Below, in pieces: positions 5,866-20,503 of a stretch of 20,503 nt of DNA (the first letter of the stretch is position 1; each line of letters begins with the position of its first letter). This stretch comes from a virus, in the IMG/VR virus record IMGVR_UViG_3300020214_000155, positions 1 through 20,503 of that record. One strand, 5' to 3'. Both the position numbers and the translations under genes were made by a program. A model generated the notes under the pieces. The model was not told the origin of the DNA, made no database searches, and was given only the letters and a program-made list of their open reading frames with translations.

Positions 5866-6075
5866 ATGAAGACATTTATTGATTTTTGTGGAAAAAGCAA
5901 AAAAGAACTGCCGGTATACGGTGTTGACGAAGACACAAAGAGAGCAGGCATTATGCATTGGGCCTACCCAGATGCTTATGTTCGTCAACAATATCCTGAT
6001 GCCTATTTCATGCCTACCGCCGCTGATGCTGTACAGAAGATGGGAAATCACAAACCGTCTCGTAGCGCCAAGTAA
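5866..6075 (+). CDS. 69-residue protein with capsid-targeting-like leader and YPDAY repeat
   Basis: GAGG lies 7 nt before ATG 5866, and a perfect hairpin terminator follows the stop, so this is a complete single-gene unit. The N-terminus MKTFIDFCGKS closely matches the T4 leader MKTYQEFIAEA (M-K-T-[YF]-x-[DE]-F). The body has a doubled motif, AYPDAYVRQQYPDAYFMP, and a basic C-terminus. It may be an internal virion protein; function otherwise unknown. Confidence 0.8.
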   Translation: MKTFIDFCGKSKKELPVYGVDEDTKRAGIMHWAYPDAYVRQQYPDAYFMPTAADAVQKMGNHKPSRSAK

Positions 6076-6097
6076 ATCAAAATTTAGCAAAGTAGCT

Positions 6098-6129
6098 AAC
6101 AAGGGAGATGAAAGTCTCCCTTGTTTTTT
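6098..6129 (+). terminator. Rho-independent terminator
   Basis: An 11-bp perfect stem, AACAAGGGAGA (6098-6108) with TCTCCCTTGTT (6115-6125), 6-nt loop, followed by TTTT. It closes the 5866-6075 transcript. The stop codon of the convergent gene begins at 6128-6130. Confidence 0.92.
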
Positions 6130-6448
6130 AATTCATGCGATCTTTGTGATCGGCGTCTGCCAAGTCATCTTCTGACTTGGGAAGTGATTGAGGATTTCTT
6201 TCCCAATAACCCCATTGATCTTCGTTCGCTGGATTCTGGAAGACCATGCCTCTTTTGTAATATTTCTCAATCAGTTGTTCAATGCGATCTTTTGTCAAAT
6301 TGCATTCTTTGGCTAACTGAGACGTAGATCGCCAGGTCCACTTGGGATTTCTGATTAACGCAATAAAAAACGCTTGCTCTTCATCCCCTTGTTTGCAGCC
6401 TTGAGGATACACATCGTACCAATTTGGTGGAAGTTTTCGTTTCGCCAT
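6128..6448 (-). CDS. Small winged-helix-like protein
   Basis: A 106-residue protein; ATG 6448 is preceded by AAGGGTG. The N-terminus is KRKLPPNWYDVYPQG. The central STSQLAKECNLTKDRIEQLI is a helix-turn-helix pattern, followed by a wing-like turn (RGMVFQNPANEDQWGYWER), and the C-terminus is acidic. This suggests a winged-helix DNA-binding regulator or a phage-typical wHTH of unknown target. It is convergent with the 5866 gene and divergent from the 6560 gene. Confidence 0.8.
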   Translation of the reverse strand: MAKRKLPPNWYDVYPQGCKQGDEEQAFFIALIRNPKWTWRSTSQLAKECNLTKDRIEQLIEKYYKRGMVFQNPANEDQWGYWERNPQSLPKSEDDLADADHKDRMN

Positions 6449-6486
6449 TTTTTCACCCTTTTCTAAATTGAAGCTGACTTACATAC

Positions 6487-6492
6487 TATAAT
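6487..6492 (+). promoter_or_regulatory. TATAAT -10-like box upstream of the 6560 gene
   Basis: TATAAT sits in the divergent gap, within CTATAATAAGAGG. The nearest -35-like TTGAAG (6468-6473) is only 13 nt upstream, so a standard sigma70 promoter is doubtful. TTATAATAAG also occurs ahead of the minus-strand gene at 5041, which may mean a phage-specific promoter. Confidence 0.4.
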
Positions 6493-6559
6493 AAGAGGAA
6501 GTCCGCATCGAATTATATATCTTTTCGGCTTCTGAAACAACAAAATTAGGAAGGTGAAT

Positions 6560-7036
6560 ATGTTTAGAAAAAAAATGAATCGCATAGAGCGAAGGGAATT
6601 TCAGAAACAAAAACTTGCACAGAATTTAGCTGGAAGTGGTTTGTATGTCTACGAGAACAACACCAGTGGCACATTAACTTTGCCAAAACCAACCAATTCG
6701 GGCAAGCGAGTTGTAGCTCCAAAGGAACAATTCCAAGGCGATAGCTATTTCTTGAGCCTAGTGAAACCACCGAATAATTTGCTCAAATTAGTAAAGACCA
6801 TCACAACGGACTTACCAGCAGAAACACAACCCCAAACACTTATGGAGTCAAATATGAACGAACAAAAATTGATTTTGGATCAACCAGACCGTGTAACATC
6901 TAAAGGCACTATTGAACAAGTTGTAAAACAACAGCCCGTTCAGAAGCTAAATGATTCGGTTGAGAAAAAGCAGCCATCAAAGGAAGTCCTCTTAACGGAA
7001 GACCCATTGGACGGCGTAGAAATTATTCTTGGATAA
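6560..7036 (+). CDS. Hypothetical Lys/Gln-rich protein
   Basis: 158 residues from ATG 6560, with AGGAAGGTG directly upstream; a GTG two codons earlier is part of that ribosome site. The N-terminus is very basic (MFRKKMNRIERREFQKQK). Then come a short aromatic segment (GLYVYENNTSG), a Thr/Pro/Gln-rich stretch with little predicted fold, and an acidic end (TEDPLDGVEIILG). No family recognised. A strong terminator lies 22 nt after the stop. Confidence 0.8.
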   Translation: MFRKKMNRIERREFQKQKLAQNLAGSGLYVYENNTSGTLTLPKPTNSGKRVVAPKEQFQGDSYFLSLVKPPNNLLKLVKTITTDLPAETQPQTLMESNMNEQKLILDQPDRVTSKGTIEQVVKQQPVQKLNDSVEKKQPSKEVLLTEDPLDGVEIILG

Positions 7037-7058
7037 AACCCAATATCCGAATACGAAT

Positions 7059-7089
7059 AAATGGCCCGGCGTATATGCCGGGCCATTTT
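7059..7089 (+). terminator. Strong hairpin terminator
   Basis: A 12-bp perfect stem, AAATGGCCCGGC (7059-7070) with GCCGGGCCATTT (7077-7088), loop GTATAT, TTTT at its 3' side. The A-rich 5' side could also terminate minus-strand transcription. It isolates the AAA+ cassette from upstream transcription. Confidence 0.92.
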
Positions 7090-7091
7090 GC

Positions 7092-7120
7092 TTTACAGCC
7101 CACAGTTCCTGTGGTATAAT
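7092..7120 (+). promoter_or_regulatory. Sigma70-type promoter with inverted repeat in the spacer
   Basis: TTTACA (7092-7097) and TATAAT (7115-7120) are 17 bp apart, near-consensus and optimally spaced. The spacer contains CCACAG-TTC-CTGTGG (7100-7114), a 6-bp inverted repeat positioned like an operator. It would give a leader of about 105 nt ahead of the ATPase gene and is the best bacterial-type promoter seen in the window. Confidence 0.8.
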
Positions 7121-7231
7121 TCCCCAACGCCCCATCTGGCACCAGAAAACTTCTTGGGAAAATAGCTGGGAGTAGATTCCTGCGTTCCGTATAGATGTTG
7201 AACGATCCATTAGCCAAAGGAACTCAAACCC

Positions 7232-8521
7232 ATGTACAAACTGTATTTGCAGCGTAAAACACAGAACAGGGTCAGCAACGAAAAGATCGAATCACAGATC
7301 GAATATATCCTCAAGCGGGGCACGGCTGCGGGCCGGGGAAATACTTGGATCGTAACTAAGCTTCGAATTCCCCCTGTCCAGAAGGAAGGATTTTGGCATT
7401 TTACCTATGAGGTAAATTTCACCAAGATTCGTGGCGAACGGGGTGCAGAAGCGGAATACAACCAATGGGAAAAAATTAAGACCATGATTATCCAGACGGG
7501 TGCTGCTGCAAAGTTTCAGCAATATCCGTGGTTGGTCGTGGACCCTCAGAATAATGCCACTGCCGTCCGACTTCCTGTCGTCGTCACCACGCCAGCGGCG
7601 GCACAAGCACCGGCAGGACCACCGGAGAATATTGCAGACATTATCTCGCAGGCCAGCGAAGCCATTGCTGACCGGCTGTTGAACGGCGTCCGAGAAGTCG
7701 GAACGTCTCTTGGCGGGGTAAAGACATGGAATGATCTGATTATTCCGCCCGAATTTTTTGGGGCAGGAAGCGATCAGGCATTGAGCCAACACCCCGCATG
7801 GAAGGATTTGTATGATCTTGGGCCGCAAGTCCGGCTTTTGATGAACAATATTCAGCGAGCCGCAACGACAGGCGGCGAAAGCCGCAACCACGGCGTATTG
7901 TTCGGACATTCAGGCTGTGGCAAGACGACAACCTTGCTCTCATTCGAGAAAATGTTCGGTGAAGGTTCGGTACTTCGTCTGGATGCAACCAGCACCACAA
8001 AAGCTGGCTTGGAGAAAATGTTCTTCAATGATCTGACGGAAATTCCGCCGTTGGTCTTTATGGAAGAGGCTGAAAAGGCCGATCCCGAAGCGTTGAAGAT
8101 TTGGTTGGGAGCATTGGATGATCGTGGCGAAATTCGGAAAATAAATTTCCGAGTGAACCAGCTTCGCTCATTGAGGGTCTTGTTCTTCTGCACAGTGAAC
8201 AACAAGGCTCTCTTCGACAAGATGATGGGTTCCGATGGTTCTGAGGCGGGCGCTTTGTCGAGCCGCTGTGTGAGCCAGATTTACTTCCCTCGTCCATCCA
8301 ATGATACCCTTCGTCAAATTTTGAAGAAGGAAATTGACCAACACGGTGGCAATTATGATTGGATTGCACCAGCGTTGGATTTGGCAAAAGAAATGGGAGT
8401 ATCTGACCCTCGTATCGTCCGACACTACCTTGCTGGTGGCGACCGTCTCATGGATGGCGGATACCAACGTGACTGGAGGGCGATCCAGCAGGCACAAAAG
8501 ACTTTTCAAAATGGTGGTTAA
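7232..8521 (+). CDS. AAA+ ATPase
   Basis: A 429-residue protein starting at ATG 7232, with AAAGGAA 11 nt upstream. Residues 1-~165 form a separate N-terminal region ending in an Ala/Pro-rich linker (VVTTPAAAQAPAGPPENI). The AAA+ module has Walker A GHSGCGKT (225-232), Walker B PLVFMEEAEK (273-282), sensor-1 FFCTVNN (N323), an arginine-finger candidate SSRC (R345) and a sensor-2-like DPRIVRHYL (R394). The closest general look is a clamp-loader/RuvB/Cdc48-type remodeller rather than a helicase, but the partner is unknown. The coding sequence is visibly richer in G+C than its neighbours and has its own host-type promoter and flanking terminator, which suggests a separately acquired, early or constitutively expressed cassette. 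The structured RNA at 8530 follows 8 nt after the stop. Confidence 0.9.
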   Translation: MYKLYLQRKTQNRVSNEKIESQIEYILKRGTAAGRGNTWIVTKLRIPPVQKEGFWHFTYEVNFTKIRGERGAEAEYNQWEKIKTMIIQTGAAAKFQQYPWLVVDPQNNATAVRLPVVVTTPAAAQAPAGPPENIADIISQASEAIADRLLNGVREVGTSLGGVKTWNDLIIPPEFFGAGSDQALSQHPAWKDLYDLGPQVRLLMNNIQRAATTGGESRNHGVLFGHSGCGKTTTLLSFEKMFGEGSVLRLDATSTTKAGLEKMFFNDLTEIPPLVFMEEAEKADPEALKIWLGALDDRGEIRKINFRVNQLRSLRVLFFCTVNNKALFDKMMGSDGSEAGALSSRCVSQIYFPRPSNDTLRQILKKEIDQHGGNYDWIAPALDLAKEMGVSDPRIVRHYLAGGDRLMDGGYQRDWRAIQQAQKTFQNGG

Positions 8522-8529
8522 GTGACTCT

Positions 8530-8672
8530 CCCCACCGCAAGCGGTGGGGCTTCGGAGTATTCTAATTACGCAAGCGTAATCAGCAATAATTGGCGGCTTA
8601 CATCCACAAGGCAAGCCATGCCACATCGGAGTACCGACGTGGCATCCCTTCGGGTTGTGGTTTTACGCCGCC
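8530..8672. ncRNA. Candidate structured RNA with two hairpins and a four-way junction
   Basis: Two hairpins come first: CCCCACCG/CGGTGGGG (8530-8549) and ATTACG/CGTAAT (8565-8580), both with CAAG loops. An outer helix, GGCGGC (8592-8597) with GCCGCC (8667-8672), then encloses a second helix, CCACAA (8604-8609) with TTGTGG (8655-8660). This holds three back-to-back hairpins with no unpaired bases between them: GG-CAAG-CC (8610-8617), ATGCCAC.TCGG/CCGA.GTGGCAT (8618-8645) and CCCTTCGGG (8646-8654). The density of perfect pairing in non-coding DNA is hard to explain by chance. Strand is unclear: CUUCGG favours plus, while the single A.C mismatch (8625/8638) becomes G.U on minus. No Rfam family is recognised, and omega-RNA or IS200/IS605-end relics are alternatives. 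Confidence 0.6.
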
Positions 8673-8673
8673 T

Positions 8674-9099
8674 TTATAATAAATTCAACCTCATGTGGCA
8701 GTCAAAAACTTCGTACCCAAATTTTTTGTAAAACAGAACCAAATCTTGTTTGCAATCAAGCAACACTTTATAGCAACCAAATCTTTTGGCTTCTGCAATA
8801 AGGTGCCTTTGTAATAAAGAACCAATTCCTTTGCCTTGATGATCTTTGTGCGTGGCTACGTCTTCAACGTGGCCCGATTTGCTGCCCCCGTGGAGGAACT
8901 TTTGTTCTACAAAGAGTGTTGCAGCCCCCACTACATTCCCGTCGTCTTCAACGACGACGTATATTTTGACGCATTCTGGAAGATTTTGAAATAACTGCAA
9001 TGCGTCTTCGGGGGTCATATTTGTTGGTCTTAAATTTGAGAGAGTTTCAAAAAATCCTTTCGTCAAATCTTCTGGCTGTAAAGGTCTAATCGTCATCAT
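8674..9099 (-). CDS. Glucosamine-6-phosphate N-acetyltransferase (GNA1-type GNAT)
   Basis: A 141-residue GNAT, near the usual compact GNA1 length. Diagnostic segments are GHVEDVATHKDHQGKGIGSL (residues 76-95), which includes the acetyl-CoA pyrophosphate loop Q-G-K-G-I-G, and GCYKVLLDCKQDLVLFYKKF (108-127), equivalent to the GNA1 motif GCYK-x-x-LDC...FY-x-K-x-GF. The enzyme would acetylate glucosamine-6-phosphate with acetyl-CoA, leading to UDP-GlcNAc. This single-domain form is mainly eukaryotic and uncommon in bacteria, which normally use GlmU. The ATG at 9099 or 9096 lacks a clear ribosome site but overlaps the end of a small upstream ORF, so coupling is likely. It lies back-to-back with the RmlA-like gene, supporting a sugar-nucleotide role. 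Confidence 0.85.
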   Translation of the reverse strand: MMTIRPLQPEDLTKGFFETLSNLRPTNMTPEDALQLFQNLPECVKIYVVVEDDGNVVGAATLFVEQKFLHGGSKSGHVEDVATHKDHQGKGIGSLLQRHLIAEAKRFGCYKVLLDCKQDLVLFYKKFGYEVFDCHMRLNLL

Positions 9100-9196
9100 G
9101 GACTAAATGAGTATATTTAGATAAAATCGCCGAGGCCGGTTGTTGTCCCACTAGCAGGGCAAAAATAGTAAAAATCAATATAGTCTTCTTCAACAT
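9086..9196 (-). CDS. 36-residue signal-peptide ORF ahead of GNA1
   Basis: ATG 9196-9194 has AAAGGAAAA just upstream. The product has a textbook secretion signal: MLKKTILIFTIFALLV, then GQQPASA with an Ala-x-Ala cleavage site, leaving a mature peptide of only 13 residues (ILSKYTHLVHDDD). Its stop (9086-9088) lies 14 nt inside the GNA1 ORF. It may be a coupling leader, a secreted micropeptide, or the remains of a longer exported protein. Confidence rests on the ribosome site, signal pattern and overlap. Confidence 0.55.
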   Translation of the reverse strand: MLKKTILIFTIFALLVGQQPASAILSKYTHLVHDDD

Positions 9197-9248
9197 TTGT
9201 TTTCCTTTCACTCTATTAACTAGGCATTTCATAAGAAGGAAGAAAAAA

Positions 9249-10025
9249 ATGAAAGGCGTTATACTTGCGGGTGGAATGGGAACTAGACTTTATCCTTTAA
9301 CAAAAGTCACAAACAAGTGTTTGTTACCAGTTTACAACAAGCCAATGATTTACTGGCCAATCGAAAGTTTGGTCCGTAGCGGCATTACAGATATTCTCAT
9401 TGTCTGTGGAGGTAATGCTGCTGGCGAGTTCTTGAGAATTCTTGGCAACGGCGAAGAATTCGGCTTGAAGCACCTTCACTACACTTACCAAAAAGAAGCA
9501 CGAGGCATTGCTGATGCTTTGTCGTTAGCCGAAGATTGGGCCGATAATGAAGCTATTTGTGTTATCCTAGCTGATAATATTTTTGAAAATGGCTTTCCAG
9601 ATGCAGTTCAACAATTTGAAGCCAACCCAGACGGGGCCAAAATATTTTTGTCCGAAGTAGAAAATCCACAACACTACGGCGTAGTGGAAATTGACAAGAC
9701 GAGCGGCAGAATTATTTCCATCGAAGAGAAGCCCAAAGCTCCGAAATCCAACTTGATTGCAACCGGGTTGTATATGTATGACAAAACTGTGTGGGATTTC
9801 ATTCGTAGTTTGTCTCCATCAAAGAGAAACGAACTTGAAATCACAGACGTAAACAACCGATACTTGAAGATTGGAAAATTGTCGGCTCACAAAATTGATG
9901 GCTGGTGGATGGATGCGGGAGAAAATATTGAAGGATATTTATCCGCCTGCCAAATGGCTGGTACAATAAAAAAGGGTTGTGCAGTTGCTGAAAAATCTAA
10001 GGAAAAGTTAGTTAATCTACACTAA
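9249..10025 (+). CDS. rmlA: RmlA-type sugar-1-phosphate nucleotidyltransferase
   Basis: A 258-residue protein with AAGGAAG before ATG 9249. It has the nucleotidyltransferase signature KGVILAGGMGTRLYPLT (2-18), CLLPVYNKPMIYWPIESL, the metal-binding VILADNIFENG (D109), HYGVVEID, SIEEKPKAPKSN (158-169), ATGLYMYD and WWMDAGENIEGYLSA (D222 as second metal ligand). It would couple glucose-1-phosphate with dTTP to make dTDP-glucose, the first step to dTDP-rhamnose and related sugars. The C-terminus is shorter than the ~290 residues of cellular RmlA, lacking part of the allosteric/dimer region, so exact substrate is uncertain. No later rml genes are in the window, so the product is presumably used by host enzymes or by phage genes elsewhere. 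Confidence 0.9.
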   Translation: MKGVILAGGMGTRLYPLTKVTNKCLLPVYNKPMIYWPIESLVRSGITDILIVCGGNAAGEFLRILGNGEEFGLKHLHYTYQKEARGIADALSLAEDWADNEAICVILADNIFENGFPDAVQQFEANPDGAKIFLSEVENPQHYGVVEIDKTSGRIISIEEKPKAPKSNLIATGLYMYDKTVWDFIRSLSPSKRNELEITDVNNRYLKIGKLSAHKIDGWWMDAGENIEGYLSACQMAGTIKKGCAVAEKSKEKLVNLH

Positions 10026-10040
10026 TATGAATACCGTTAG

Positions 10041-10202
10041 TAGACGGGACACAGAGGTCTTCACGCCCAAAAGATTTTGAGCGGCAGTCGCCCCAAGACA
10101 AACAATGATCTTGGGAGAAATGACTTTAAGTTGCAAATCAAGAAAGAGGTAACAGTTTCTTGATTCTTGTGGAGTTGACACCGTATCTTCTGAGGAACCC
10201 GG
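10041..10202 (-). pseudogene. Relic of a family-4-type uracil-DNA glycosylase
   Basis: On the minus strand, an internal fragment reads TPQESRNCYLFLDLQLKVIS, then PKIIVCLGATAAQNLLGVKT, then SVSRL. This matches the UDG family 4/5 block in which 'TPEE..NC.P.L..Q...I.P..IV.LG..AA..LLG' is typical. The N-terminal uracil-binding motif, the cluster Cys residues and the C-terminal His motif are absent: upstream sequence runs into the 10255 gene and a stop occurs just after SVSRLLTVFILV. The frame is open from about 10235 to 10017 but has no ribosome site. The fragment occupies the gap between rmlA and the 10255 gene, so this looks like the leftover of a gene lost by deletion. Confidence 0.65.
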
Positions 10203-10254
10203 CAGAAAAAGCATGGGAAGATTTTCAGGAGACAAAAAAAGAATTGGAAAAATA

Positions 10255-10947
10255 ATGTTCCTACCCCTATTGCTTTGGATCGTTCTGGATGAAACTTTTT
10301 ACATGCCAGAACCCACAAAAGAAATAAACGAAAAAATCGCCTTGTTGGGCAATGATAATTTTCGAGTTAGAGAAAAAGCAGACAAAGAACTCAGAGAAAT
10401 CGGCTGGCCTGCCCTCAAGGGCGTGTGTCGGGCTGCGAGAAGTAGCCCTGACCTCGAAATTAAAATACGAGCAAGTCATATTTACACGACATATTTGCAC
10501 GTTGCAAGCGATGATAAAGAAATTCCAATTCCACCCATCTGGTTTATAGACGAAAAACTTCGATACCCCAAAGGATTTACACTCGAAGTCACTAAGATTG
10601 AAAGACTTGGGAGCGTCTGTAAAATTCTTGATGTGCCAGATTTAGCCAAATCATTTTACGATAAGGCCGCAAAAAGAAACGAAGAGTTTCCCAGCGGATA
10701 TAGTAATGATGATTACGCCAAAGAAGCCACTACGTTGTATATAAGACAACGACTTCTTCGGGGCGAGAAACACGAAGACTTGAAAAAAGTGCTTAATCAG
10801 GCTGTCAAGAACAGCAAAGCATACAGACATTACTATCAGACTTCGGATATTACAAACGAATGGCCCGCCTACGACTGGCTTAATTCACCGCCCGGTCCTA
10901 TGATTAAATTGGAAGATTTTAAAGAACCAAATCCGTGGGGACCATGA
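10255..10947 (+). CDS. Exported HEAT-like protein of planctomycete style
   Basis: 230 residues from ATG 10255 (GGA 6 nt upstream); the frame extends to 10213 but would add 14 residues before a hydrophobic N-terminus (MFLPLLLWIVLDETFYM) that suits export or membrane anchoring. Then INEKIALLGNDNFRVREKAD, ELREIGWPALKGVCRAARSS and PDLEIKIRASHI form one HEAT-like helical unit of the type common in planctomycete secreted proteins. The remainder is helical and charged, ending SPPGPMIKLEDFKEPNPWGP. The stop overlaps the next ATG (ATGA at 10944-10947), giving coupled translation with the DUF6065-like gene. Role unknown; host origin is an inference. Confidence 0.72.
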   Translation: MFLPLLLWIVLDETFYMPEPTKEINEKIALLGNDNFRVREKADKELREIGWPALKGVCRAARSSPDLEIKIRASHIYTTYLHVASDDKEIPIPPIWFIDEKLRYPKGFTLEVTKIERLGSVCKILDVPDLAKSFYDKAAKRNEEFPSGYSNDDYAKEATTLYIRQRLLRGEKHEDLKKVLNQAVKNSKAYRHYYQTSDITNEWPAYDWLNSPPGPMIKLEDFKEPNPWGP

Positions 10948-11762: not shown

Positions 11763-11916
11763 GACAAATTTGAAGCAAAAGCATTTTTGCTTCGGCAAGA
11801 GGAAGTCTGAATTCCTCTGCAATTTTTTTCCCGCTGATTCCAGTCGGGTGCTTCTTAATCGTCTGGATTAAAGGACAATTTTCGAGATTTTGACAATCAA
11901 CGCATTCGATGGTCAT
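11728..11916 (-). CDS. 62-residue Cys-containing HTH-like protein
   Basis: AGGA lies about 8 nt before ATG 11916. The N-terminus ECVDCQNLENCP has three Cys (CxxC plus Cys14) that could bind zinc. GISGKKIAEEFRLPLAEAKM resembles a helix-turn-helix, as in small MarR/IscR-like or FeoC-like winged helices. It is the last gene of the minus operon 14021-11728 and overlaps the end of the plus gene by 35 nt. Confidence 0.65.
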   Translation of the reverse strand: MTIECVDCQNLENCPLIQTIKKHPTGISGKKIAEEFRLPLAEAKMLLLQICLMSHFVLKSSV

Positions 11917-11962
11917 GTTTCAGTCCTATATTGTGATTTACAACAAGACAGATTCTATCCCA

Positions 11963-12553
11963 TTACTTTTGGCTGTCAAGCACATTTTTACTCGCCAACC
12001 ATTCCGAAAACGAGTTTTTTGGGATTTTGCTATTTATCGCACGTTTGTACGAAGACCAATGTTCGGCCATTTTTGGGTGCAATTTGTATTCGCCTAACTC
12101 GTTGATAGGTATCCACTTAGCCTCGCTATGTTCTTTACTGATTTCGCACTCGAAGGGTTTAGAAACCCTGTAAACAAAAACATGGAAGTTGTGGTGCCCG
12201 TCTTTTTCGTGAAATTTTTCGATTTGATAACCTTGCGGTCCAGCCCCGCATTCTTCCTTGGTTTCACGCCATGCTGTAGCGATGGGGCTTTCGCCCTTTT
12301 TCGCACCACCGCCCGGAATTCCCCACGTTCCCGCATTGTCGCTTGGCTCTTTTCGCTTTAGCAACAAAACAGAATGGCCATCCGTAAAGAGGATTCCGGC
12401 CCCGGATTGATGCCAATATCGCTTGCCATCCCTCCCGATTCTGTGAAATTGCTCAGAAAAAGTGGGGAAAACGTCGGCTTGAGTGACGCCCCACGCCAAG
12501 CATCCTTCACAAATGTCTTGGTCGCTGGATTCCCCGCAGTAGCAACAAATCAT
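11963..12553 (-). CDS. Nudix hydrolase with N-terminal zinc ribbon
   Basis: A 196-residue protein. Residues 1-20 (MICCYCGESSDQDICEGCLA) carry CxxC and CxxC pairs, a zinc-ribbon-like finger. Residues ~46-180 are a Nudix domain with an intact box: G82-x5-E88-x7-REtxEEcG (to ~104), preceded by NAGTWGIPGGG. The metal-binding Glu residues (E97, E100, E101) are present. The enzyme would hydrolyse a nucleoside-diphosphate-linked compound; the substrate could be an oxidised nucleotide, a nucleotide sugar or an RNA cap, and cannot be decided from the box. Its ATG overlaps the stop of the previous gene (ATGA, 12550-12553), so it is coupled. Confidence 0.88.
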   Translation of the reverse strand: MICCYCGESSDQDICEGCLAWGVTQADVFPTFSEQFHRIGRDGKRYWHQSGAGILFTDGHSVLLLKRKEPSDNAGTWGIPGGGAKKGESPIATAWRETKEECGAGPQGYQIEKFHEKDGHHNFHVFVYRVSKPFECEISKEHSEAKWIPINELGEYKLHPKMAEHWSSYKRAINSKIPKNSFSEWLASKNVLDSQK

Positions 12554-13146
12554 CCTTTTGGTCCCCTCTTCAACGGAACTGGCTTCAATTTCTCTTGATG
12601 ACGATCAGGCTGATCCTTCAAGTGATGCATCATATTGTTCAATTCTTTGGCTATTCCTGCGGCATTATCAGCATCACACTTTTTATTTGTCTGAATAGAA
12701 ATTGTCCTTCTTTCACGATTATAAAATCCTTTGGATATTACAAAACAAGCGTGTTCGGCATTCCATGTGACAACCCCAGCCCATTCTCCATCATCCCAAT
12801 TTCTTGTAGAAACCAATAAACGGAGGGGTTTTTCTGTAAAGACATGCTTCGTATGATAGCCATTATTCTTGAGAGCGGCGCTCACATATCCCAAAGCAAC
12901 CTTGGCGAACCCTTCCAAAACTTCTTCTTTTTTCGTGCGATAATTGACTTCAATACCGTATCTGGAAGTTTCGACTGCTTCAACAAGTGTATTCTCACGA
13001 TGTTCAAAATAGGTTTTTAAATTACCTTTAAGAACAATGCCAAAATACTCCAAAGCGAGCTTGGCAAATTCATCTTTGTTGATGAATTTAAACTCGCCGG
13101 AATCGCCAATGTTCTTTTCTTGATACCAATCTTTATATGATTTCAT
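12550..13146 (-). CDS. Leader-bearing hypothetical protein with internal duplication
   Basis: 198 residues from ATG 13146, with GGGG 7 nt upstream and 2 nt after the stop of the gp13-like gene. The N-terminus MKSYKDWYQEKNIGDSGEF matches the T4 capsid-targeting leader pattern (MKTYQEFIAE). The body has two similar helical segments, FAKLALEYFGIVLKGN and FAKVALGYVSAALKNN, each followed by a beta-like stretch, which suggests an internal repeat. RLLVSTRNWDDGEWAGVVTW precedes the C-terminus, which is basic (KLKPVPLKRGPKG). Cotranscription with a neck protein supports a virion or prohead-internal role. No family recognised. Confidence 0.8.
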   Translation of the reverse strand: MKSYKDWYQEKNIGDSGEFKFINKDEFAKLALEYFGIVLKGNLKTYFEHRENTLVEAVETSRYGIEVNYRTKKEEVLEGFAKVALGYVSAALKNNGYHTKHVFTEKPLRLLVSTRNWDDGEWAGVVTWNAEHACFVISKGFYNRERRTISIQTNKKCDADNAAGIAKELNNMMHHLKDQPDRHQEKLKPVPLKRGPKG

Positions 13147-13148
13147 AT

Positions 13149-14021
13149 TTACCCCATAGAAGGACCAAGCAAATCGCCCCATTTATTGAGTAGCTTTTCT
13201 TCCCATTCTTTTTTCTCTTCCAATCCTTCTTGTAGGATTTGCTGGCCATCCAACTGAACACCACCGTTGGGACCGGGCGGATTCTGGATTTTAGAACGAA
13301 TTCTGCCAAGAATAATCTTGGCGAATGCCAAAGCACCTTCTTGCATAGCCTGAGTAACCATTGCAAAGTCTGGTCGTCGCTGTAAATATCGAACAATTAC
13401 CGGGAAACTTCTGTAAGGAGTAGGGTATAATTTGACGTGATTATATCCGCCCAGCCATTCCCAACCGCCCTGTTGACCAGAAATTCTGTTGTACATATCT
13501 TCGTATTGTTTGTACAAAACCCATTCGCCCATCTTTCCCCAAACAGGTTGTTGAGGGTTAATACCACCTGCAATACTACCGTAAGCACCCGCTCCCATAT
13601 ATTCGAGGGGGATTACACCGCCTAAATCTGATGCAGAAAATGCATGTTTTGCAGTTTCTTTGTAATAGATGTTACGAACGTATCCTACATCGACTGGCAA
13701 TTCATAAACGCTTTGCCCCGGTGTAGCGTAAAAAGTGTAATACTGGAAATATTCAGCAGGAGCGTAGTCCTCAAATATTTGAAGAGCAAAGTCAATTGCA
13801 TTGTAAACTTGTTGTTCGTCTAACTCTAACGCAATTACGGGGGCACCAAGCATGGTGAGAACATATTCCTTGATTTGTTCTCTAACTTTGAGTCTGGAAC
13901 GTCTAGGACCAATTTTTACCAAGGGATCGGTCGCACCTAAATCATTGCAAGAAGGACAGTTGGCATAAGCGCTGTACTCTTCTTTGCTGGGTCGAGGAAT
14001 AAATAATATATTGCTGCTCAT
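13149..14021 (-). CDS. Neck / head-tail connector protein, T4 gp13-like
   Basis: A 290-residue protein from ATG 14021; no clear ribosome site, but the divergent 41-bp gap leaves little choice. LKVREQIKEYVLTMLGAP, then VIALELDEQQVYNAIDFALQ and IFEDYAPAEYFQYYTF, follows the pattern I recall for T4-like neck proteins (short helix, L-G-A-P, D-E-Q, A-I-x-x-A-L). Beta segments follow (GQSVYELPVDVGYVRNIYY, HVKLYPTPYRSFPVIVRYL). The C-terminus is a helical segment from QAMQEGALAFAKIILGRI through GLEEKKEWEEKLLNKWGDLL. These features are typical of head-completion proteins. A Cys pair (ANCPSCND) lies near the N-terminus. Family call is from memory and moderately sure. Confidence 0.65.
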   Translation of the reverse strand: MSSNILFIPRPSKEEYSAYANCPSCNDLGATDPLVKIGPRRSRLKVREQIKEYVLTMLGAPVIALELDEQQVYNAIDFALQIFEDYAPAEYFQYYTFYATPGQSVYELPVDVGYVRNIYYKETAKHAFSASDLGGVIPLEYMGAGAYGSIAGGINPQQPVWGKMGEWVLYKQYEDMYNRISGQQGGWEWLGGYNHVKLYPTPYRSFPVIVRYLQRRPDFAMVTQAMQEGALAFAKIILGRIRSKIQNPPGPNGGVQLDGQQILQEGLEEKKEWEEKLLNKWGDLLGPSMG

Positions 14022-14062
14022 GTCAATATATAGTTTTAGGATTACGAAATGGGGTTGTAATT

Positions 14063-17000
14063 ATGAAAGCTGTTAACTTCAAAGATTTCTTCAAAACAAA
14101 ATTTTTCTCAGAAGACAGGAAATATGTCACCGCATATATGCCAAAGCTCTTCGAGATGGCTAGACCATTTGACGCCACCGATCCTACGGCCAGTGGAACA
14201 GGCGACGTGGCAAAGCTTCCTATTCGTATTGATAATGATGACATTGAATTTCTATATCAATTCCCACCAGAACTTTGGGGACGTGCGTTGCACACCCGCT
14301 ATCACGACGATTTATATGCCGCTTTGAAAGCCAGAGAGGAAGCCCGTAGTCCAAAATACGAAGAATTAATGGAAAAAATTAAGCAAGCTCTAGTATCAGG
14401 AAATCTCAGAACACTTATAGATGTAGTCAAGCCGCACATTCTAAGAAAAATTCAGGACAATTACGGTCCAGAATGGTCAAACACTTATAAAGGGAACCTA
14501 GAAAAAGCCGCTACGGGCGCTGCTAAGGATATTGCTTATTATGCAGTTGAAGAGGCAATGCCAAATACTGTGGTCGATAATGAACCTAAAGTTTATGTAT
14601 TTCGTGGATCAGGAAAAGGAACCCGATGGATCAAAGCTCGCTCATTTATCAATCGTTTAATCCACAAATTAGAAAGAACACGGCATCATGAACACTCTCC
14701 AGACGCCGGATTGTCAAAGTACGGACATGAAAAGGGACAATACGGATATGATTTACATGGTGTCAAAGAAGGAATGCCGGAGAGAAATATTCCTCATAGC
14801 ATTCAAGGTATGCAAATGCCTGCGAGTCAAACAACTGTGGAGCGCATGAAGGATTTTCTTGCAACAAATGCTCACGGAATATATGGCGAATTACCAAAAG
14901 AAGGCGAAGAAGCCGAATTGTCTTCTGGCGAAAAAATACAAATAAAAAAATACCAACCTGTTGCAGCCGGAAAGGGCGGACAAGGCGGCGGACAGACCGA
15001 AGATACGTTTATTAGTAAAAAACATCAAAACCCACTCATATCCAAATACTGGAACCTTCTGAGTTTGGCTAACGCTCCCTTCCGTACTAAAAGCGGCGAA
15101 AAGGTTGATCCTAAAAGTTTTGCAACCAACACGGAAAAACGAAAAGAAGCTGTACGACTTGCCAACCAAGATATTAAGTGGTTGAAACAAAATGGCGGCA
15201 TTTCTGGCCCGCCAATTCCCGGCCATCCCCAACACAAGGAAGGGATGCCGTTCGATCAGCGTCAAATTGTACACCTTCCTCACTTTGAGAAGGAAATTGT
15301 AGAAATAGACAAAGAAGGCAGAGAATTCAAAAAGAAAATTGACATGCCATTCGTTAAACCGGCTGGATATTTTCGATCTATTGGCAGTTTACCCGAAGAT
15401 TACGAAAGAGACGATGAGGGCAAAATCGTCATCGGCCCAGATGGTAGATGGAAATATTCAATCCCAGACGAAGAACGCAGAGGCTATGAGAGAGATTATG
15501 TTGATGTTCACCCAGACGACTATGAAGAAATTCTAAGAAAAACACGCAAAAAAGGCGTATATGCTACGGGGGCTATGTCGGTAAACCAAAATACGTCTGG
15601 CACTAGACCACTCGAATACGGTCATAAAGATTATCTCGCAAAGATGTTCCAAATCTTTGGCCCAGACCAGGAAGATGATCGCCCCCGCCCCACAACAGCG
15701 ATGAAAATGTACAAGTTAGATAGTGAAGGACAATTAGACCGCACGGGAGAAGGCGGACCATTTTATGATGACATTATTCGTGGTATTAGATACTGCTTAA
15801 AAGGTCCTAAATGCGGTGGGGTCACAATATGGGAAAGAAATATTGGTTTGGGTAATATCGAAGAACTTCACCAAATCGTTTTTCAAAAAATGCAACGAAA
15901 TATAAATGATCCAGATATGTTGGTCCCAAGTAGACGTGTCACATTTGCTAACACTCAAACAAGCATGATTATGCAACAAGACCACGAAGGTGGTAAAACT
16001 CGCAGAAAGAGAATTCTTGGAAAAAGCCCAGCTTTGCGTAACCAGTCAATGAATCGTGCTACGGCAAGTGCGGAAACAGGTGAAGAAAGTTCGTCAACAA
16101 CTCAAGACATTGTTACACAAAAGTTGATAGACAGAGGCTTCTATCGTGACGAAATTGGTGACACGGTAAGTAGAAGGCAACTCTCTGGTCAACACAAATT
16201 CCCTTACGATGTACACCAGATGCGTACTTTACTCGATGAATTAAGAAAAGAAGCCGGAAATGCCGATATAGAAGCTAAGGTAGCAAAAGAAAGAAGCCGT
16301 CAAGATATAGGCGAAGAAATCATTAAGTTACTTTCAAAGTCTATTCAAGACAAAACAATTGTTGCTCTACAAATCTACGAAATAATTAAGAAAATGATAC
16401 AAGTCGATGGTTATACATTGGACAAAGACGTGGAAAAAGAAGCCAATAAAGTTATGAAGGCAATTACCAAAAATGCACAAACATCAAAACAATTGGTATT
16501 AAATTTTGAGCAACTTCCAATGACCATAAAATATTCTAGCTCGGATGAACTACGGGCCGGTCAAGCTCAACAACAGCCACAACAAACCCAAGCTGGTGGC
16601 AGAGACAAAGACCTAGATGTTGCTATCGACAAGCTATGGGCGGATATTCTTGACAGAATTCCAACTGACGATAGGAACAAGTTTGTTCCTACTGAACAAA
16701 TGAAAACGGCTTTGTTGCCTCAAGGTGGAGAGAATGTAAGTCGAGTGGCTAAATTGATTGCCAGCAACTTCGCTGGTAAGGAAAAGGCAATTGCCGCAGG
16801 CGTACAAGACGCTATTTATGATGCTTTGGATATGGAAAAACCGGCTGAGCAAAAGCCAGCGGCTTTGCCGGTAAGTCCTCAACAACAAACTCCAAAACAG
16901 CCGATCCCAATTCACCCTCAAAGTCCAGTAGCAGCAGCAGCTAGGAGAGTGGCAGTATCGGCTCAAGAGAGAGCAAAGGGTGATTGGAAGACATTGAAGG

Positions 17001-17194
17001 ACAATAAAGACTTGTTGGCTTTGGCCTTCCACCAGGAATTCTTGGCTCGGTTGAAAAAAGAATCACTAGAAATTCTAAGAGCAGCTATTTTACGGAATCA
17101 CGGAAGTGCAGACAATCAAGATGAAGTGCGACAAGCTCTATTAAAGGTGGATAACGAAATCCAAAGTGCAATAAGAACCGAAAAACGAAATTAA
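14063..17194 (+). CDS. Large (1043-residue) orphan phage protein with capsid-targeting-like N-terminus
   Basis: One uninterrupted frame from ATG 14063 (GGGG about 9 nt upstream). The N-terminus MKAVNFKDFFKTKFFSEDRK contains an F-K-D-F-F core like phage capsid-targeting leaders, shifted by two or three residues. Most of the protein is charged, Lys/Glu/Gln-rich and probably helical or disordered, with His/Gly/Tyr-rich parts (HHEHSPDAGLSKYGHEKGQY), a more ordered middle (IIRGIRYCLKGPKCGGVTIW, IGLGNIEELHQIVFQKMQRN), and Gln/Pro/Ala linkers near the end (AQQQPQQTQAGG; SPQQQTPKQPIPIHPQSP). The C-terminus is a helical segment (HQEFLARLKKESLEILRA). No enzymatic motif is seen. Position among neck genes suggests a virion-internal or tail-associated protein. 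Confidence 0.85.
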   Translation: MKAVNFKDFFKTKFFSEDRKYVTAYMPKLFEMARPFDATDPTASGTGDVAKLPIRIDNDDIEFLYQFPPELWGRALHTRYHDDLYAALKAREEARSPKYEELMEKIKQALVSGNLRTLIDVVKPHILRKIQDNYGPEWSNTYKGNLEKAATGAAKDIAYYAVEEAMPNTVVDNEPKVYVFRGSGKGTRWIKARSFINRLIHKLERTRHHEHSPDAGLSKYGHEKGQYGYDLHGVKEGMPERNIPHSIQGMQMPASQTTVERMKDFLATNAHGIYGELPKEGEEAELSSGEKIQIKKYQPVAAGKGGQGGGQTEDTFISKKHQNPLISKYWNLLSLANAPFRTKSGEKVDPKSFATNTEKRKEAVRLANQDIKWLKQNGGISGPPIPGHPQHKEGMPFDQRQIVHLPHFEKEIVEIDKEGREFKKKIDMPFVKPAGYFRSIGSLPEDYERDDEGKIVIGPDGRWKYSIPDEERRGYERDYVDVHPDDYEEILRKTRKKGVYATGAMSVNQNTSGTRPLEYGHKDYLAKMFQIFGPDQEDDRPRPTTAMKMYKLDSEGQLDRTGEGGPFYDDIIRGIRYCLKGPKCGGVTIWERNIGLGNIEELHQIVFQKMQRNINDPDMLVPSRRVTFANTQTSMIMQQDHEGGKTRRKRILGKSPALRNQSMNRATASAETGEESSSTTQDIVTQKLIDRGFYRDEIGDTVSRRQLSGQHKFPYDVHQMRTLLDELRKEAGNADIEAKVAKERSRQDIGEEIIKLLSKSIQDKTIVALQIYEIIKKMIQVDGYTLDKDVEKEANKVMKAITKNAQTSKQLVLNFEQLPMTIKYSSSDELRAGQAQQQPQQTQAGGRDKDLDVAIDKLWADILDRIPTDDRNKFVPTEQMKTALLPQGGENVSRVAKLIASNFAGKEKAIAAGVQDAIYDALDMEKPAEQKPAALPVSPQQQTPKQPIPIHPQSPVAAAARRVAVSAQERAKGDWKTLKDNKDLLALAFHQEFLARLKKESLEILRAAILRNHGSADNQDEVRQALLKVDNEIQSAIRTEKRN

Positions 17195-17202
17195 GAGCTA
17201 AT

Positions 17203-17493
17203 ATGGCAACAACAGACCTAAACCCGTGGATGAGCTATCTCGGTAACCCGAAAGCTCATTATGTTCAAAAAAGCATGTTCCAAATCCTACAGGATCGGTA
17301 TGTAAAACACCAAGACATTGTAGAAAGGGTTGGAGTATCACTCCTAACCGACAAAGACGTACAGGCTTTTTTACAAATGACGATTGAGGTATATGAAATA
17401 GGCTATCTTAAAGCTGTGGGTGATTATAAAGAGCAACTTGAGAAAATGGGAATTAAGGCTACGGTGGTTCACCCAGATCAAGTTTCAAAATGA
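17203..17493 (+). CDS. 96-residue hypothetical protein
   Basis: Begins 8 nt after the large gene's stop, with AAGAG about 5 nt upstream, so it is in the same transcript. Mostly helical (SMFQILQDRYVKHQDIVERV, LQMTIEVYEIGYLKAVGDYK). Begins MATTDLNPWMSYLGNPKAHY. No family recognised. Its last 16 nt overlap the end of the convergent gene 17478-18143. Confidence 0.8.
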   Translation: MATTDLNPWMSYLGNPKAHYVQKSMFQILQDRYVKHQDIVERVGVSLLTDKDVQAFLQMTIEVYEIGYLKAVGDYKEQLEKMGIKATVVHPDQVSK

Positions 17494-18143
17494 GGCTGAA
17501 AATCAGATGGATGGGAGGTAATGATCCAACCGCCCGTCTTTTCGACTATTTCCTGTACTCTCCACCATCTTTTTTGTGCGGTTTTGGGATATATGATCGA
17601 GCCTTGAAGTATTTGATTGGTAAATTTGTCTGCTTGTGTCCAAAATTTAAAAGTTAAATCAGACATATCTAAAATCACCCCCTCGAAAGAGAAAGGGGAT
17701 TTGTATTTTAAAGTTTGCACATTATCGCCGTAAACACTGTCAATTTTAACGTCAAGAAAAGCTGGCAGGCAGTGAATAAATATTTTTGGAATGGAATTGT
17801 CGATATTTTCGGGTCGTGGAGGCTTAACAATCTTGTTTTCAACCACAGTTATTTCGGATTTTGGTTCCAAAATGACCTTGGGTTCAGAAATTGTTGGCGT
17901 CTCTACTACTTTAATATCAGATTCTTTGGGAATTAATGCGGCAGCTTGGTCAAGTTCATCAATAAAACTATTGCGAACTTGAAAATCTGTTTTGATGGCA
18001 TGAAGCTCTGAAGAGTCGGGCAGGATTTCGTTATCCCACTTCATATTGTGAACACGGAACTCCTCCCATATTTTTTGTTCTTTCATTATGGGATTTGGTC
18101 CCTTCAAACGATAAACACTGCCGTCCTTATTTTTCAAAGCCAT
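17478..18143 (-). CDS. Virion-structure-type protein sharing an N-terminal motif with the gp14-like gene
   Basis: 221 residues from ATG 18143 (AAGAG 6 nt upstream); the frame extends to 18167 without a better start. The N-terminus MALKNKDGSVYRLKGPNPIM resembles that of the 19870 product (MLRNQDGTPYTLAGSIQQF): 'L-[KR]-N-x-D-G-[ST]-x-Y-x-L-x-G'. A middle linker is Glu/Pro/Val-rich (VVETPTISEPKVILEPKSE). The C-terminal domain has KIFIHCLPAFLDVKIDSVYG and AQKRWWRVQEIVEKTGGWII, typical in feel of phage connector or tail proteins. Its start overlaps the end of the homing-endonuclease gene by 10 nt. Confidence 0.75.
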   Translation of the reverse strand: MALKNKDGSVYRLKGPNPIMKEQKIWEEFRVHNMKWDNEILPDSSELHAIKTDFQVRNSFIDELDQAAALIPKESDIKVVETPTISEPKVILEPKSEITVVENKIVKPPRPENIDNSIPKIFIHCLPAFLDVKIDSVYGDNVQTLKYKSPFSFEGVILDMSDLTFKFWTQADKFTNQILQGSIIYPKTAQKRWWRVQEIVEKTGGWIITSHPSDFQPHFET

Positions 18144-18907
18144 TTTATTCTCTTTTCTGCAAGCCAAGATTCAAATTCTTTTTTGCAGTATTTGCCTTGT
18201 TTATTTAGATTGTGTTGTTTTGGAATGGGACGCAAGTTTTCCAAACAGTTTATCAATTTTAAGTCTTGAATTCCATAATCTATAAACGCCTTTATTGGAA
18301 AGACATGATCTAAGTGCCATTCATCTTTAATGATTTGCTTGAATTTATCCTGATTTATCCAGTTGCGAAACTCATCTGAAGTAAATCCTAACATTTGACT
18401 TGTTTTATATATTTTTTTCTTACCAAATGATTTCAAAGACCTGTGCAAAAGATTGTAACATCGCTTCCTCAAAGACTCATTCTCTTTGATAAATTCCCTA
18501 TCAGGATTCCATTTATGATTTTTTGGACCTATTTTCAAACTACAATTTCGACAGCGATGCCCAGACTTAAAATTAGAAAAGGTAATTTCTGCGATGTTGT
18601 TACAAGAACATTTGTAAACAAGTGGTGTTAGAGAATTCTTATATTCATCACTCAAAAGAATGCATTTGTTAGATTCAAAATATGATTTAACATATTCATA
18701 ATCAAAAGCTCTGGTTTTTGAACTTTTCAGATTGCCACAATTTTTACATCTAGCACCTAATCTGAATCTCTTCAAGTTATTTTTAGCTTTACTGCCGCAT
18801 GAGCATACATATTCTAGCGAAGTATTACTATCTTTATATTGTGATACAAGTTTACAACCTTGATCTTTAAAGATTTTTTCAACTTCGTTTTGGGATAATT
18901 TTCGCAT
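18134..18907 (-). CDS. Free-standing HNH homing endonuclease with two zinc ribbons
   Basis: 257 residues from ATG 18907 (AAGGA 7 nt upstream); in-frame codons further out reach into the 19002 gene and are not used. Two repeated ~60-residue units each end in a CxC...CxxC zinc ribbon: C35/C37/C54/C57 (VCSCGSKAK..RCKNC) and C100/C102/C119/C122 (KCSCNNIAE..RCRNC). The C-terminal HNH nuclease shows WHLDHVFPIKAF (H198, D200, H201), LINCLENLRPIPKQHNLNK (N224, H232). Such zinc-ribbon/HNH proteins are phage mobile genes that cut intron-less or gene-less alleles. It sits between structural genes, overlapping the start of the next minus gene by 10 nt, and there is no intron. Confidence 0.88.
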   Translation of the reverse strand: MRKLSQNEVEKIFKDQGCKLVSQYKDSNTSLEYVCSCGSKAKNNLKRFRLGARCKNCGNLKSSKTRAFDYEYVKSYFESNKCILLSDEYKNSLTPLVYKCSCNNIAEITFSNFKSGHRCRNCSLKIGPKNHKWNPDREFIKENESLRKRCYNLLHRSLKSFGKKKIYKTSQMLGFTSDEFRNWINQDKFKQIIKDEWHLDHVFPIKAFIDYGIQDLKLINCLENLRPIPKQHNLNKQGKYCKKEFESWLAEKRIKWL

Positions 18908-18972
18908 TATGATTCCTTTTCTGTTTATATAGAAATAGGACCAAATAAATTTCTCAAAAAAATTTGCACAAT

Positions 18973-18980
18973 TATAAATA
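18973..18980 (+). promoter_or_regulatory. TATAAATA late-promoter-like box
   Basis: An exact TATAAATA, the core of T4-type late promoters (recognised by the gp55 sigma factor), lies 21 nt before ATG 19002, with AGGAG (18991-18995) between. Suits expression of a virion gene. No gp55 homologue is in this window to confirm the system. Confidence 0.6.
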
Positions 18981-19001
18981 GAAGAAAAGTAGGAGTCAAA
19001 T

Positions 19002-19427
19002 ATGGCATTAGTAGTACCTGACGTTGCTGAAATTCTGATGTTGCAATATATCGTCAATATGTTGGCAACAGATGGCACAGCCGGACCAGCCGGTGGAAAT
19101 AGAGTTCTCAGACTTTACACCAACAATCCAACTATTGACGACAGCATTACGACTTCAGTTATTACTGAGGCGGTAGGAGCTACTGGTTACGCTCCAATTA
19201 CCCTTGCGGGTTCATCTTGGACGACAACTCAGGCGGTGGGCGTAACTACGGCAGTTTACAGTGAACAGACCTTTACATTTACGACGGCAGTGACAATTTA
19301 CGGGTATTATGTAACTTCCCAAACAGGTGGAAACTTACTATGGGTTGAGAAATTCTCAGGCGCTCCGTTCCAGTTGCCATCAGGCGGTGGCGAGATTGCT
19401 ATTACACCCAAGATCACTCTTGATTAG
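19002..19427 (+). CDS. Beta-rich phage virion-type protein
   Basis: A 141-residue protein with AGGAG 6 nt before ATG 19002 and a late-type promoter in front. Starts MALVVPDVAEILMLQYIVNM, then RVLRLYTNN, a Thr/Ala/Val-rich beta region (ITEAVGATGYAPITLAGSSW, AVYSEQTFTFTTAVTIYGYY) and LLWVEKFSGAPFQLPSGGGE. I have seen this layout (RLYTNN ... WxxxxFSGAPF ... GG) repeatedly in large-phage proteins of unknown role, probably surface or tail-fibre-associated. No exact function. Ends at a pair of terminators. Confidence 0.8.
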   Translation: MALVVPDVAEILMLQYIVNMLATDGTAGPAGGNRVLRLYTNNPTIDDSITTSVITEAVGATGYAPITLAGSSWTTTQAVGVTTAVYSEQTFTFTTAVTIYGYYVTSQTGGNLLWVEKFSGAPFQLPSGGGEIAITPKITLD

Positions 19428-19526
19428 TGATAAATTTCAATATGACCTTACTAATGAGGTTATGAAAAATACAACTAACCAAACGAACTGCAAAAAGATT
19501 ATAAACTACTATTTGAAAACGAAGAG

Positions 19527-19552
19527 TGCCGAGCAAACCGCTCGGCATTTTT
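19527..19552 (+). terminator. Rho-independent terminator 1
   Basis: TGCCGAGC (19527-19534) pairs with GCTCGGCA (19540-19547), loop AAACC, followed by TTTTT. About 100 nt after the stop of the 19002 gene. Confidence 0.88.
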
Positions 19553-19562
19553 CAATAACTTG

Positions 19563-19599
19563 AAAACCTTCTGCCTATATAAAGGCAGAAGGTTTTTTT
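19563..19599 (+). terminator. Rho-independent terminator 2
   Basis: AAAACCTTCTGCC (19563-19575) pairs with GGCAGAAGGTTTT (19584-19596), 8-nt loop TATATAAA, followed by further T's to 19599. Only 10 nt after terminator 1, so transcription of the virion gene is stopped twice before the 19615 gene. It has A-rich and T-rich sides and so may act on both strands. Confidence 0.92.
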
Positions 19600-19614
19600 G
19601 TTAAAAGGGCGATT

Positions 19615-19870
19615 ATGGACTTTTCAAGCTGGTTCTTACCAGAAAGAGAGAATGCTTTAGAAGTATTAGACATGATTTGGAACAAAGAAATTGAGAAGTT
19701 AGACATAAATGCTGTACGAGGCCAGTTGAGTATCCCGGAAGAACGTCTTGATCATCAAATTGATTCGTGTTGCAGGTGATGAAACCAAGGAAGAGTTGGG
19801 TCTTTCAGGGCCGACGTATAACTGGGCAAAAAGACCCGGATCAGGTAAAAGAGCAATCGGGAGAGAGTAA
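19615..19870 (+). pseudogene. Small phage gene broken (or programmed) by a +1 frameshift
   Basis: ATG 19615 opens MDFSSWFLPERENALEVLDM and continues to EIEKLDINAVRG, LSIPEERLDHQ, then hits TGA at 19777. In the +1 frame from about 19748 the sequence reads LIRVAGDETKEELGLSGPTY, then NWAKRPGSGKRAIGRE, and ends at TAA 19868-19870, overlapping the next ATG (TAATG). That frame has its own TGA at 19727-19729, so the switch must lie between 19730 and 19776. The total span is 256 nt, one more than 84 codons plus stop, as expected for a single inserted base. Explanations are an assembly/sequencing error, a true mutation, or programmed +1 frameshifting. Function unknown. Confidence 0.7.
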
Positions 19871-20409
19871 TGTTAAGAAATCAGGATGGGACACCCTATA
19901 CGCTGGCGGGCAGCATTCAGCAGTTTAATCCTGATGCCCCTGAACACGATTTGTTTAACGATTGGGATCAAGAGGCTATCAAGCGTGGCGGTTCCCCTTT
20001 ATATTACTATGAGGTTTTGATTCAACCACAAACTGTTGATCCACTTTATTTGGAAGATCGTGGAAAACTATTCTGCAATAATCCTATCATGTTGTGGTGC
20101 AATTATGAACCAATACCATCGCAGAATGAGCTAACTCGATTTGGCATCGACGCCCCGGATGAAATGAGATTTGAAGTAAATTATCGTGCGACCCTTAAAA
20201 GTATAGGGCATCCACCCAAGATTGGTTCGAGATTGTTTACTCCACACCTTAGAGAGAATTGGGAAGTAATTCAAAGGAATTTAGGCGAATTCAAAATGTG
20301 GGGTGCATTAAGGCTAGAATTGATATGTCGCCGATTCCAAGAAACTGTTACCACAGGCGAAGGCAAAGTTACACAGAAACAACCCGATTCAAAAATAAAA
20401 ATTGTGTAA
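19870..20409 (+). CDS. Neck protein, T4 gp14-like
   Basis: A 179-residue protein. The start shares its A with the preceding TAA (TAATG); GGGAGAGAG precedes it. The N-terminus is MLRNQDGTPYTLAGSIQQFN. Then come PLYYYEVLIQPQTVDPLYLE, CNNPIMLWCNYEPIPSQNEL, TRFGIDAPDEMRFEVNYRAT, PPKIGSRLFTPHLRENWEVI and KMWGALRLELICRRFQETVT. The order E-D...P-x-x-M...L-x-[KR]-FG-[IL]...D-x-M-x-F...P-x-x-G...W-x-V...L-x-L-x-C-x-x-F matches my memory of T4-like neck protein gp14 (head closure, joins head to tail). Moderately sure. Confidence 0.62.
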   Translation: MLRNQDGTPYTLAGSIQQFNPDAPEHDLFNDWDQEAIKRGGSPLYYYEVLIQPQTVDPLYLEDRGKLFCNNPIMLWCNYEPIPSQNELTRFGIDAPDEMRFEVNYRATLKSIGHPPKIGSRLFTPHLRENWEVIQRNLGEFKMWGALRLELICRRFQETVTTGEGKVTQKQPDSKIKIV

Positions 20410-20434
20410 TATATATAAAAAAGGGGAAAACAGA

Positions 20435-20503
20435 ATGTCATCTTTTTACGAATTTTATAAAAAATTAAGTCAGGAACGGCGTATTCATGAAAATACACCC
20501 GGC
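20435..20503 (+). CDS. Start of a leader-bearing gene (3' end outside window)
   Basis: AAGGGG lies 8 nt before ATG 20435. The visible 23 codons begin MSSFYEFYKKLSQE, matching the M-x-[ST]-[YF]-x-[DE]-[FW] leader pattern, and run off the window. It is preceded by an AT-rich stretch (taatatatataaaa) 26 nt after the gp14-like stop. Probably a virion- or prohead-directed protein. Confidence 0.6.
   Translation, partial: MSSFYEFYKKLSQERRIHENTPG

Follow-up and report, generated by a model that had tools for sequence, protein, structure and literature searches.

Leader proteins of the window

The virus record IMGVR_UViG_3300020214_000155, analysed in its entire length of 20,503 bases and called the window here, encodes several proteins that begin with a short, similar peptide built around two aromatic residues, hereafter called the leader. 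The original prediction had claimed five such N-termini and likened them to the peptide that carries T4 internal proteins into the prohead. All five are found, and the first four that it named fit the pattern M.[ST][FY].[DEQ][FW] exactly. The five genes are listed below, where the matrix score is that of the leader matrix described in the next section.

3-770, minus strand: MLSYKQW protein, 3' end cut by the window; leader residues 1-7 at 770-750; matrix score 10.2
5866-6075, plus strand: MKTFIDF small protein, 69 amino acids; leader residues 1-7; matrix score 6.4
12550-13146, minus strand: MKSYKDW protein, 198 amino acids; leader helix at residues 4-10, then a variable spacer, domain from about residue 60
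14063-17194, plus strand: 1043-amino-acid protein with the shifted leader MKAVNFKDFF; aromatic pair at residues 6/9-10; matrix score 8.0
20435-20503, plus strand: MSSFYEF protein, N-terminal 23 amino acids (cut by the window end); candidate cleavage between IHE19 and N20

Four exact matches among about 26 window genes correspond to p ~6e-13 when the background rate is capped at 1 per ~12,540. A matrix score of at least 6 was reached by 4 of the 25 callable window genes, with about 0 expected in a leave-one-genome-out setting. The four window leader proteins that were scanned received no confident Pfam or PHROG assignment.

Enrichment of the leader across related phages

Relatives of the window were traced through its neck gene:

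13149-14021, minus strand: T4 gp13-like neck or head-tail adaptor protein (phrog_211 Ad2, E=2.9e-16)

The gp13-like protein links 45 IMG/VR contigs to the window, together with one relative from the annotated collection, the uncultured 595-kb phage LR756511. Since the relatives include contigs of 527, 381, 254 and 225 kb, the window most likely comes from a huge myovirus-type phage and covers only part of its genome. For the statistics we used large parts or all of ten related contigs, LR756511 included, of up to 595 kb. The yardstick genomes were T4, cyanophage S-PM2, pelagiphage HTVC008M, Cronobacter jumbo phage GAP32 and phiKZ. Genes were called by a simple caller blind to the motif, and internal Met residues served as background.

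As anticipated, the motif is enriched at N-termini. The exact pattern occurs at 56 of 3113 gene starts in the ten contigs, whereas their 12,540 internal Met residues give no match (p=3.5e-40). A looser rule, which asks for an aromatic, any residue, a polar residue and F/W inside residues 3-8, marks 192 of the 3113 clade genes, against about 22 expected from the internal-Met rate. With a matrix tested by leaving out one genome at a time, every large clade contig shows an excess (observed against expected: 55 vs 6.1 in LR756511, 44 vs 2.1 in contig G001 and 37 vs 3.7 in contig G005), and the same matrix finds no excess in GAP32 or phiKZ. The claim of five tagged proteins was therefore correct as far as it went and too low in scale, as the tag is genome-wide, with about 15-50 tagged proteins in each large contig.

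The strongest N-terminal residue pair is aromatic/aromatic at positions 4 and 7 (96 vs 38.6). When one representative from each of 127 families is aligned, the consensus is MxxFxxWLxE and almost nothing beyond it. The leader takes the form M-[KLI]-[TSN]-[FYW]-[KR]-[EQD]-[WFY]-[LIV]-x-E, with examples such as MKSYKDW..., MLSYKQWQAINES... and MKTFREWYKEK.... A chance likeness among a handful of N-termini might be suspected, as the motif is short and degenerate and the shifted FKDFF is weak by itself. Given the complete lack of internal matches, we reject chance for the whole set and consider its probability vanishingly small, although individual genes may owe their match to it.

A conserved glutamate after the leader

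The cleavage motif of a gp21-type protease, which had been proposed to lie downstream of the leaders, is indeed enriched there. Of the leader genes, 47% have the sequence [LI]xE no more than 20 residues past the leader, vs 22% of other genes at the corresponding place (p=1.6e-13), and the enrichment holds when one gene per family is counted (60/136 vs 390/1740, p=6e-8). Shuffling the leader segments yields 50.5 ± 5.7 such motifs, compared with 91 observed. No enrichment past the leaders was seen for [VA]xE or for [LI]xD/Q/K, and the P3 position of the cleavage site is broader than L/I. In the clade the glutamate peaks 3-5 residues past the second aromatic; in T4 IPII and IPIII the distance is 3.

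In four window families the glutamate is conserved at a domain boundary, and the spacer that precedes it varies in length. The signal in these families is clearer than in the genome-wide counts. The MKSYKDW family has the leader in 13/13 members and Glu56 in 13/13, while the residues between them are variable and the spacer is deleted in several members. The invariant Glu, with L/I/F at P3, stands directly before the conserved domain, and cleavage is predicted between LVE56 and A57. In an AlphaFold2 model of this protein the leader forms a short helix and residues 41-63, including Glu56, are a low-confidence segment that separates it from the domain; a structure comparison with the predicted domain found nothing of confidence (best E 0.16). 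The MLSYKQW protein has an acidic, Lys-rich body and a predicted cleavage between INE12 and S13. Its family keeps the leader in 9/9 members, and [LI]-[NSK]-E followed by [SN] also in 9/9. The MKTFIDF family retains the leader in nearly all homologues and has a conserved Glu22 (VDE) ahead of a RAGI..WAYPDAY core. For the 1043-amino-acid protein, cleavage is predicted between LFE31 and M32A; its homologues, which were found only in the three nearest contigs and not in the phage collection, conserve x-E-M-[AS] while spacer length and leader register vary. The sole clear relative of the MSSFYEF protein is a 141-residue homologue, MSSFYDF..., in the nearest contig, G009.

The MLSYKQW protein also contains a run of HED repeats, a low-complexity tandem repeat, encoded at window positions 250-350. 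In several genomes a small tagged helix-turn-helix-like protein recurs within a few kb of the MLSYKQW gene:

LR756511, L253, 9466-9780: small tagged helix-turn-helix-like protein
G002, L112, 10748-11053: small tagged helix-turn-helix-like protein
G017, L120, 10078-10389: small tagged helix-turn-helix-like protein

Late promoters of leader genes

TA[AT]ATA, the core element of T4 late promoters, is found within 20 nucleotides upstream of 66/192 leader genes vs 186/2921 others (p=1.4e-27; per family p=1.5e-26). It mostly stands 4-5 nucleotides before the ATG, a spacing found in 53 of the 192. Examples from loci L065-L258 are:

L230, 10486, plus strand: TA[AT]ATA 4-5 nucleotides before ATG
L249, 15872, minus strand: TA[AT]ATA 4-5 nucleotides before ATG
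L123, 14585, plus strand: TA[AT]ATA 4-5 nucleotides before ATG

The gp13-like and gp14-like neck genes, which have no leader, carry the same arrangement, and the leader genes therefore belong to the promoter class of late structural genes. An iterated profile search found a gp55-like late sigma factor in large clade contigs, including the nearest relative of the window. Judging from T4 late promoters, with a spacing of 4-5 nucleotides transcription would begin at the AUG or right beside it, and the arrangement suggests leaderless late mRNAs in the clade.

This spacing also raises the question of whether the N-terminal bias reflects selection on the RNA, as a translation-initiation signature of late leaderless mRNAs, and not on the protein. 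Such a signature would have to tolerate that the signal is a residue class, since F, W and Y have different codons and the aromatic pair occurs in several registers. Furthermore, the promoter element is missing from most leader genes, 75/192 have a Shine-Dalgarno-like stretch, the late neck genes have the element without the leader, and the DNA is dissimilar outside the promoter core. We therefore regard RNA-level selection as very unlikely. A related explanation is that the leaders are functionless by-products of N-terminal recombination or of recent copying of a promoter-leader cassette, which would account for a tag that moves among unrelated proteins and is often accompanied by a late promoter. 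Recent copying does not agree with upstream DNA that is 29% identical pairwise outside the promoter core, nor would functionless by-products be expected to keep leader and Glu in homologues that lose the spacer between them, and we consider this explanation extremely unlikely.

Tagged proteins

The leader is present in 136/1843 families, and the tagged genes are scattered over the genome. Pfam domains among the tagged families include NUDIX, P-loop kinase, poly(A)-polymerase/tRNA nucleotidyltransferase, C39-type cysteine protease, VWA and phosphoribosyltransferase, and several of these domains start 15-40 residues from the protein start. The leader behaves as a separate module, as members with and without it occur in the kinase family, and in the NUDIX family it is found in 3/12 members, from three contigs. 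The NUDIX homologue of LR756511 begins with the domain itself, and the window encodes an untagged member:

11963-12553, minus strand: NUDIX-type protein without a leader, with a zinc-ribbon N-terminus instead

As judged from their N-termini, the tagged NUDIX, kinase, tRNA nucleotidyltransferase and cysteine protease proteins are likely packed cargo. That enzymes which are not classically structural carry the tag, and that their genes are scattered, could instead mean that the peptide directs proteins elsewhere, for example to a phage nucleus, a membrane or a replication site. However, the nuclear shell protein gp54 of phiKZ has no detectable homologue in the clade, the tag fits the T4 internal proteins at the residues used for capsid targeting, and gp21-type cleavage motifs follow it. 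We find another destination unlikely.

Protease, head genes and comparison with known systems

The original prediction also expected a gp21-type protease in the genome. Such a protease, of family S77, was found in 9/18 related contigs and in LR756511 (E ~1e-25 to 1e-28), and none is present within the window, which is a 20.5-kb fragment. The relatives also encode a gp23-type capsid protein (E ~1e-83 to 1e-89), and in the capsid proteins of the clade a plausible hydrophobic-N-E site is seen at around residue 48. Contigs G002 and G005 have the gene order known from T4, in which the protease gene comes after a large portal-like gene and is itself followed by a coiled-coil gene and the capsid gene; the coiled-coil gene between protease and capsid gene is assigned as scaffold by position only. 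The main S77 protease of LR756511 is located at 526 kb, and this phage has a second, diverged S77 match in a 304-residue open frame (L169, 242621-242989, minus strand, E=3.5e-9).

The capsid-targeting sequence (CTS) of T4 IPI, IPII and IPIII has already been described (Mullaney and Black, 1996; reviewed in PMC9026906), and in IPIII residues 4 and 7 matter for targeting and residues 8 and 10 for processing (PMC9026906). The clade leader resembles the CTS in its N-terminal location within about 10-20 residues, its aromatics at 4 and 7, hydrophobic residue at 8 and Glu at 10 or later, and, in relatives of the window, in the company of an S77 protease and a gp23-type capsid protein. It differs in that Trp is common at position 7, the register varies, the spacer before the cleavage site is often long, and many tagged genes have the late-promoter core 4-5 nucleotides from the ATG. 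Moreover, T4 tags three internal proteins, whereas tagged genes in the large contigs of the clade are counted in dozens. When a matrix built from the clade only was applied to T4, gp61.1, IPI, IPIII and IPII were the top four of 242 genes. The best match, gp61.1 (NC_000866, 18966-19130, L272), is a hypothetical protein of 54 amino acids that starts MKTFKEFIKED..., and from this N-terminus we predict that it is an internal head protein of T4.

Other phages share parts of this arrangement. In the SPN3US/phiKZ-type head a prohead protease likewise removes propeptides of inner-head proteins, but several of these are longer than 100 residues (PMC5694885), and the matrix detects no excess of short aromatic tags in phiKZ. 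The N-terminus of P1 DarB is alone sufficient to send a reporter into the capsid, although the Dar N-termini have no common consensus according to the authors (PMC9024508). GAP32 has the S77 and gp23 families and a gp55-like sigma factor, and differs from the clade in lacking the leader excess.

Interpretation

Taken together, the leaders are very probably T4-type capsid-targeting sequences of the internal-protein type, as far as this can be read from sequence. Several observations weigh against this interpretation. The protease region lies outside both the window and its nearest relative. GAP32 has S77 and gp23 without a leader excess, so that the tag cannot be predicted from the protease alone. 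More than half of the leader genes have no strict [LI]xE in the 20 residues past the leader, and the mature T4 internal proteins have no homologue in the clade (phmmer, E<=1). Finally, false positives are expected to make up about 10% of the 192 leader calls, examples being a primase-like family and other families whose leader is not conserved. By these comparisons, the likeness to T4 is one of the tag and its machinery and not of the cargo.

From this we infer the following course of events, from docking and cleavage to a place in the virion and injection. Late in infection, the tagged proteins would be made with their N-terminal leader peptide, whose aromatics at 4 and 7 would attach the precursor to the scaffold core inside the prohead. 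Cleavage by the gp21-type S77 protease would follow, past hydrophobic-x-Glu and at one of two places: within the leader, 3-5 residues beyond the second aromatic, or where the variable spacer ends. Once freed, the cargo would stay with the packaged DNA of the mature head, and it would probably be injected at the next infection.

With more reserve, we favour a broader proposal for this clade of 200-595 kb phages, in which one T4-type tag would be the common loading signal of dozens of unrelated proteins in each genome, from more than 100 families, including NUDIX hydrolases, polynucleotide-kinase-like ATPases, a C39-type cysteine protease and a tRNA nucleotidyltransferase. Many of the tagged genes would stand alone, each with its own late promoter so near the ATG that leaderless mRNA would result, and the injected proteome would be readable from sequence. 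The open-licence literature searched contains no report of such a tag in huge uncultured phages, nor of its spread over dozens of proteins in one phage. The CTS itself is known; the version in this clade is set apart by its scale, cargo range and promoter arrangement.

Other genes of the window

A candidate for a second neck protein is encoded near the end of the window:

19870-20409, plus strand: weak match to head closure proteins of the T4 gp14 type (Hc2; phrog_679, E=0.037)

Its N-terminus is similar to that of the protein encoded at 17478-18143 on the minus strand (MALKNKDGSVYRLKGP for the latter and MLRNQDGTPYTLAGS for the former), and the two are possibly gp14-like paralogues. Judged from their translations, the genes at 2328-4662 are TPR/glycosyltransferase-like and the gene at 9249-10025 encodes an RfbA-like nucleotidyltransferase, which suggests surface-glycan functions.

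Implications

To our knowledge, the contents of huge-phage capsids and the proteins injected first are largely unknown, and most genes of these phages have no assigned function. If our interpretation is correct, well over a hundred mostly unassigned families would be placed in one compartment and at one time of action, and gp61.1 makes the interpretation testable in T4. The leaders would also provide many natural variants of a capsid-loading signal that is already used for packaging foreign proteins. For the phages themselves, the tag would give a readable list of proteins that are probably packed in heads and injected into bacteria, and would thereby name candidates for a first wave of counter-defence or takeover proteins.

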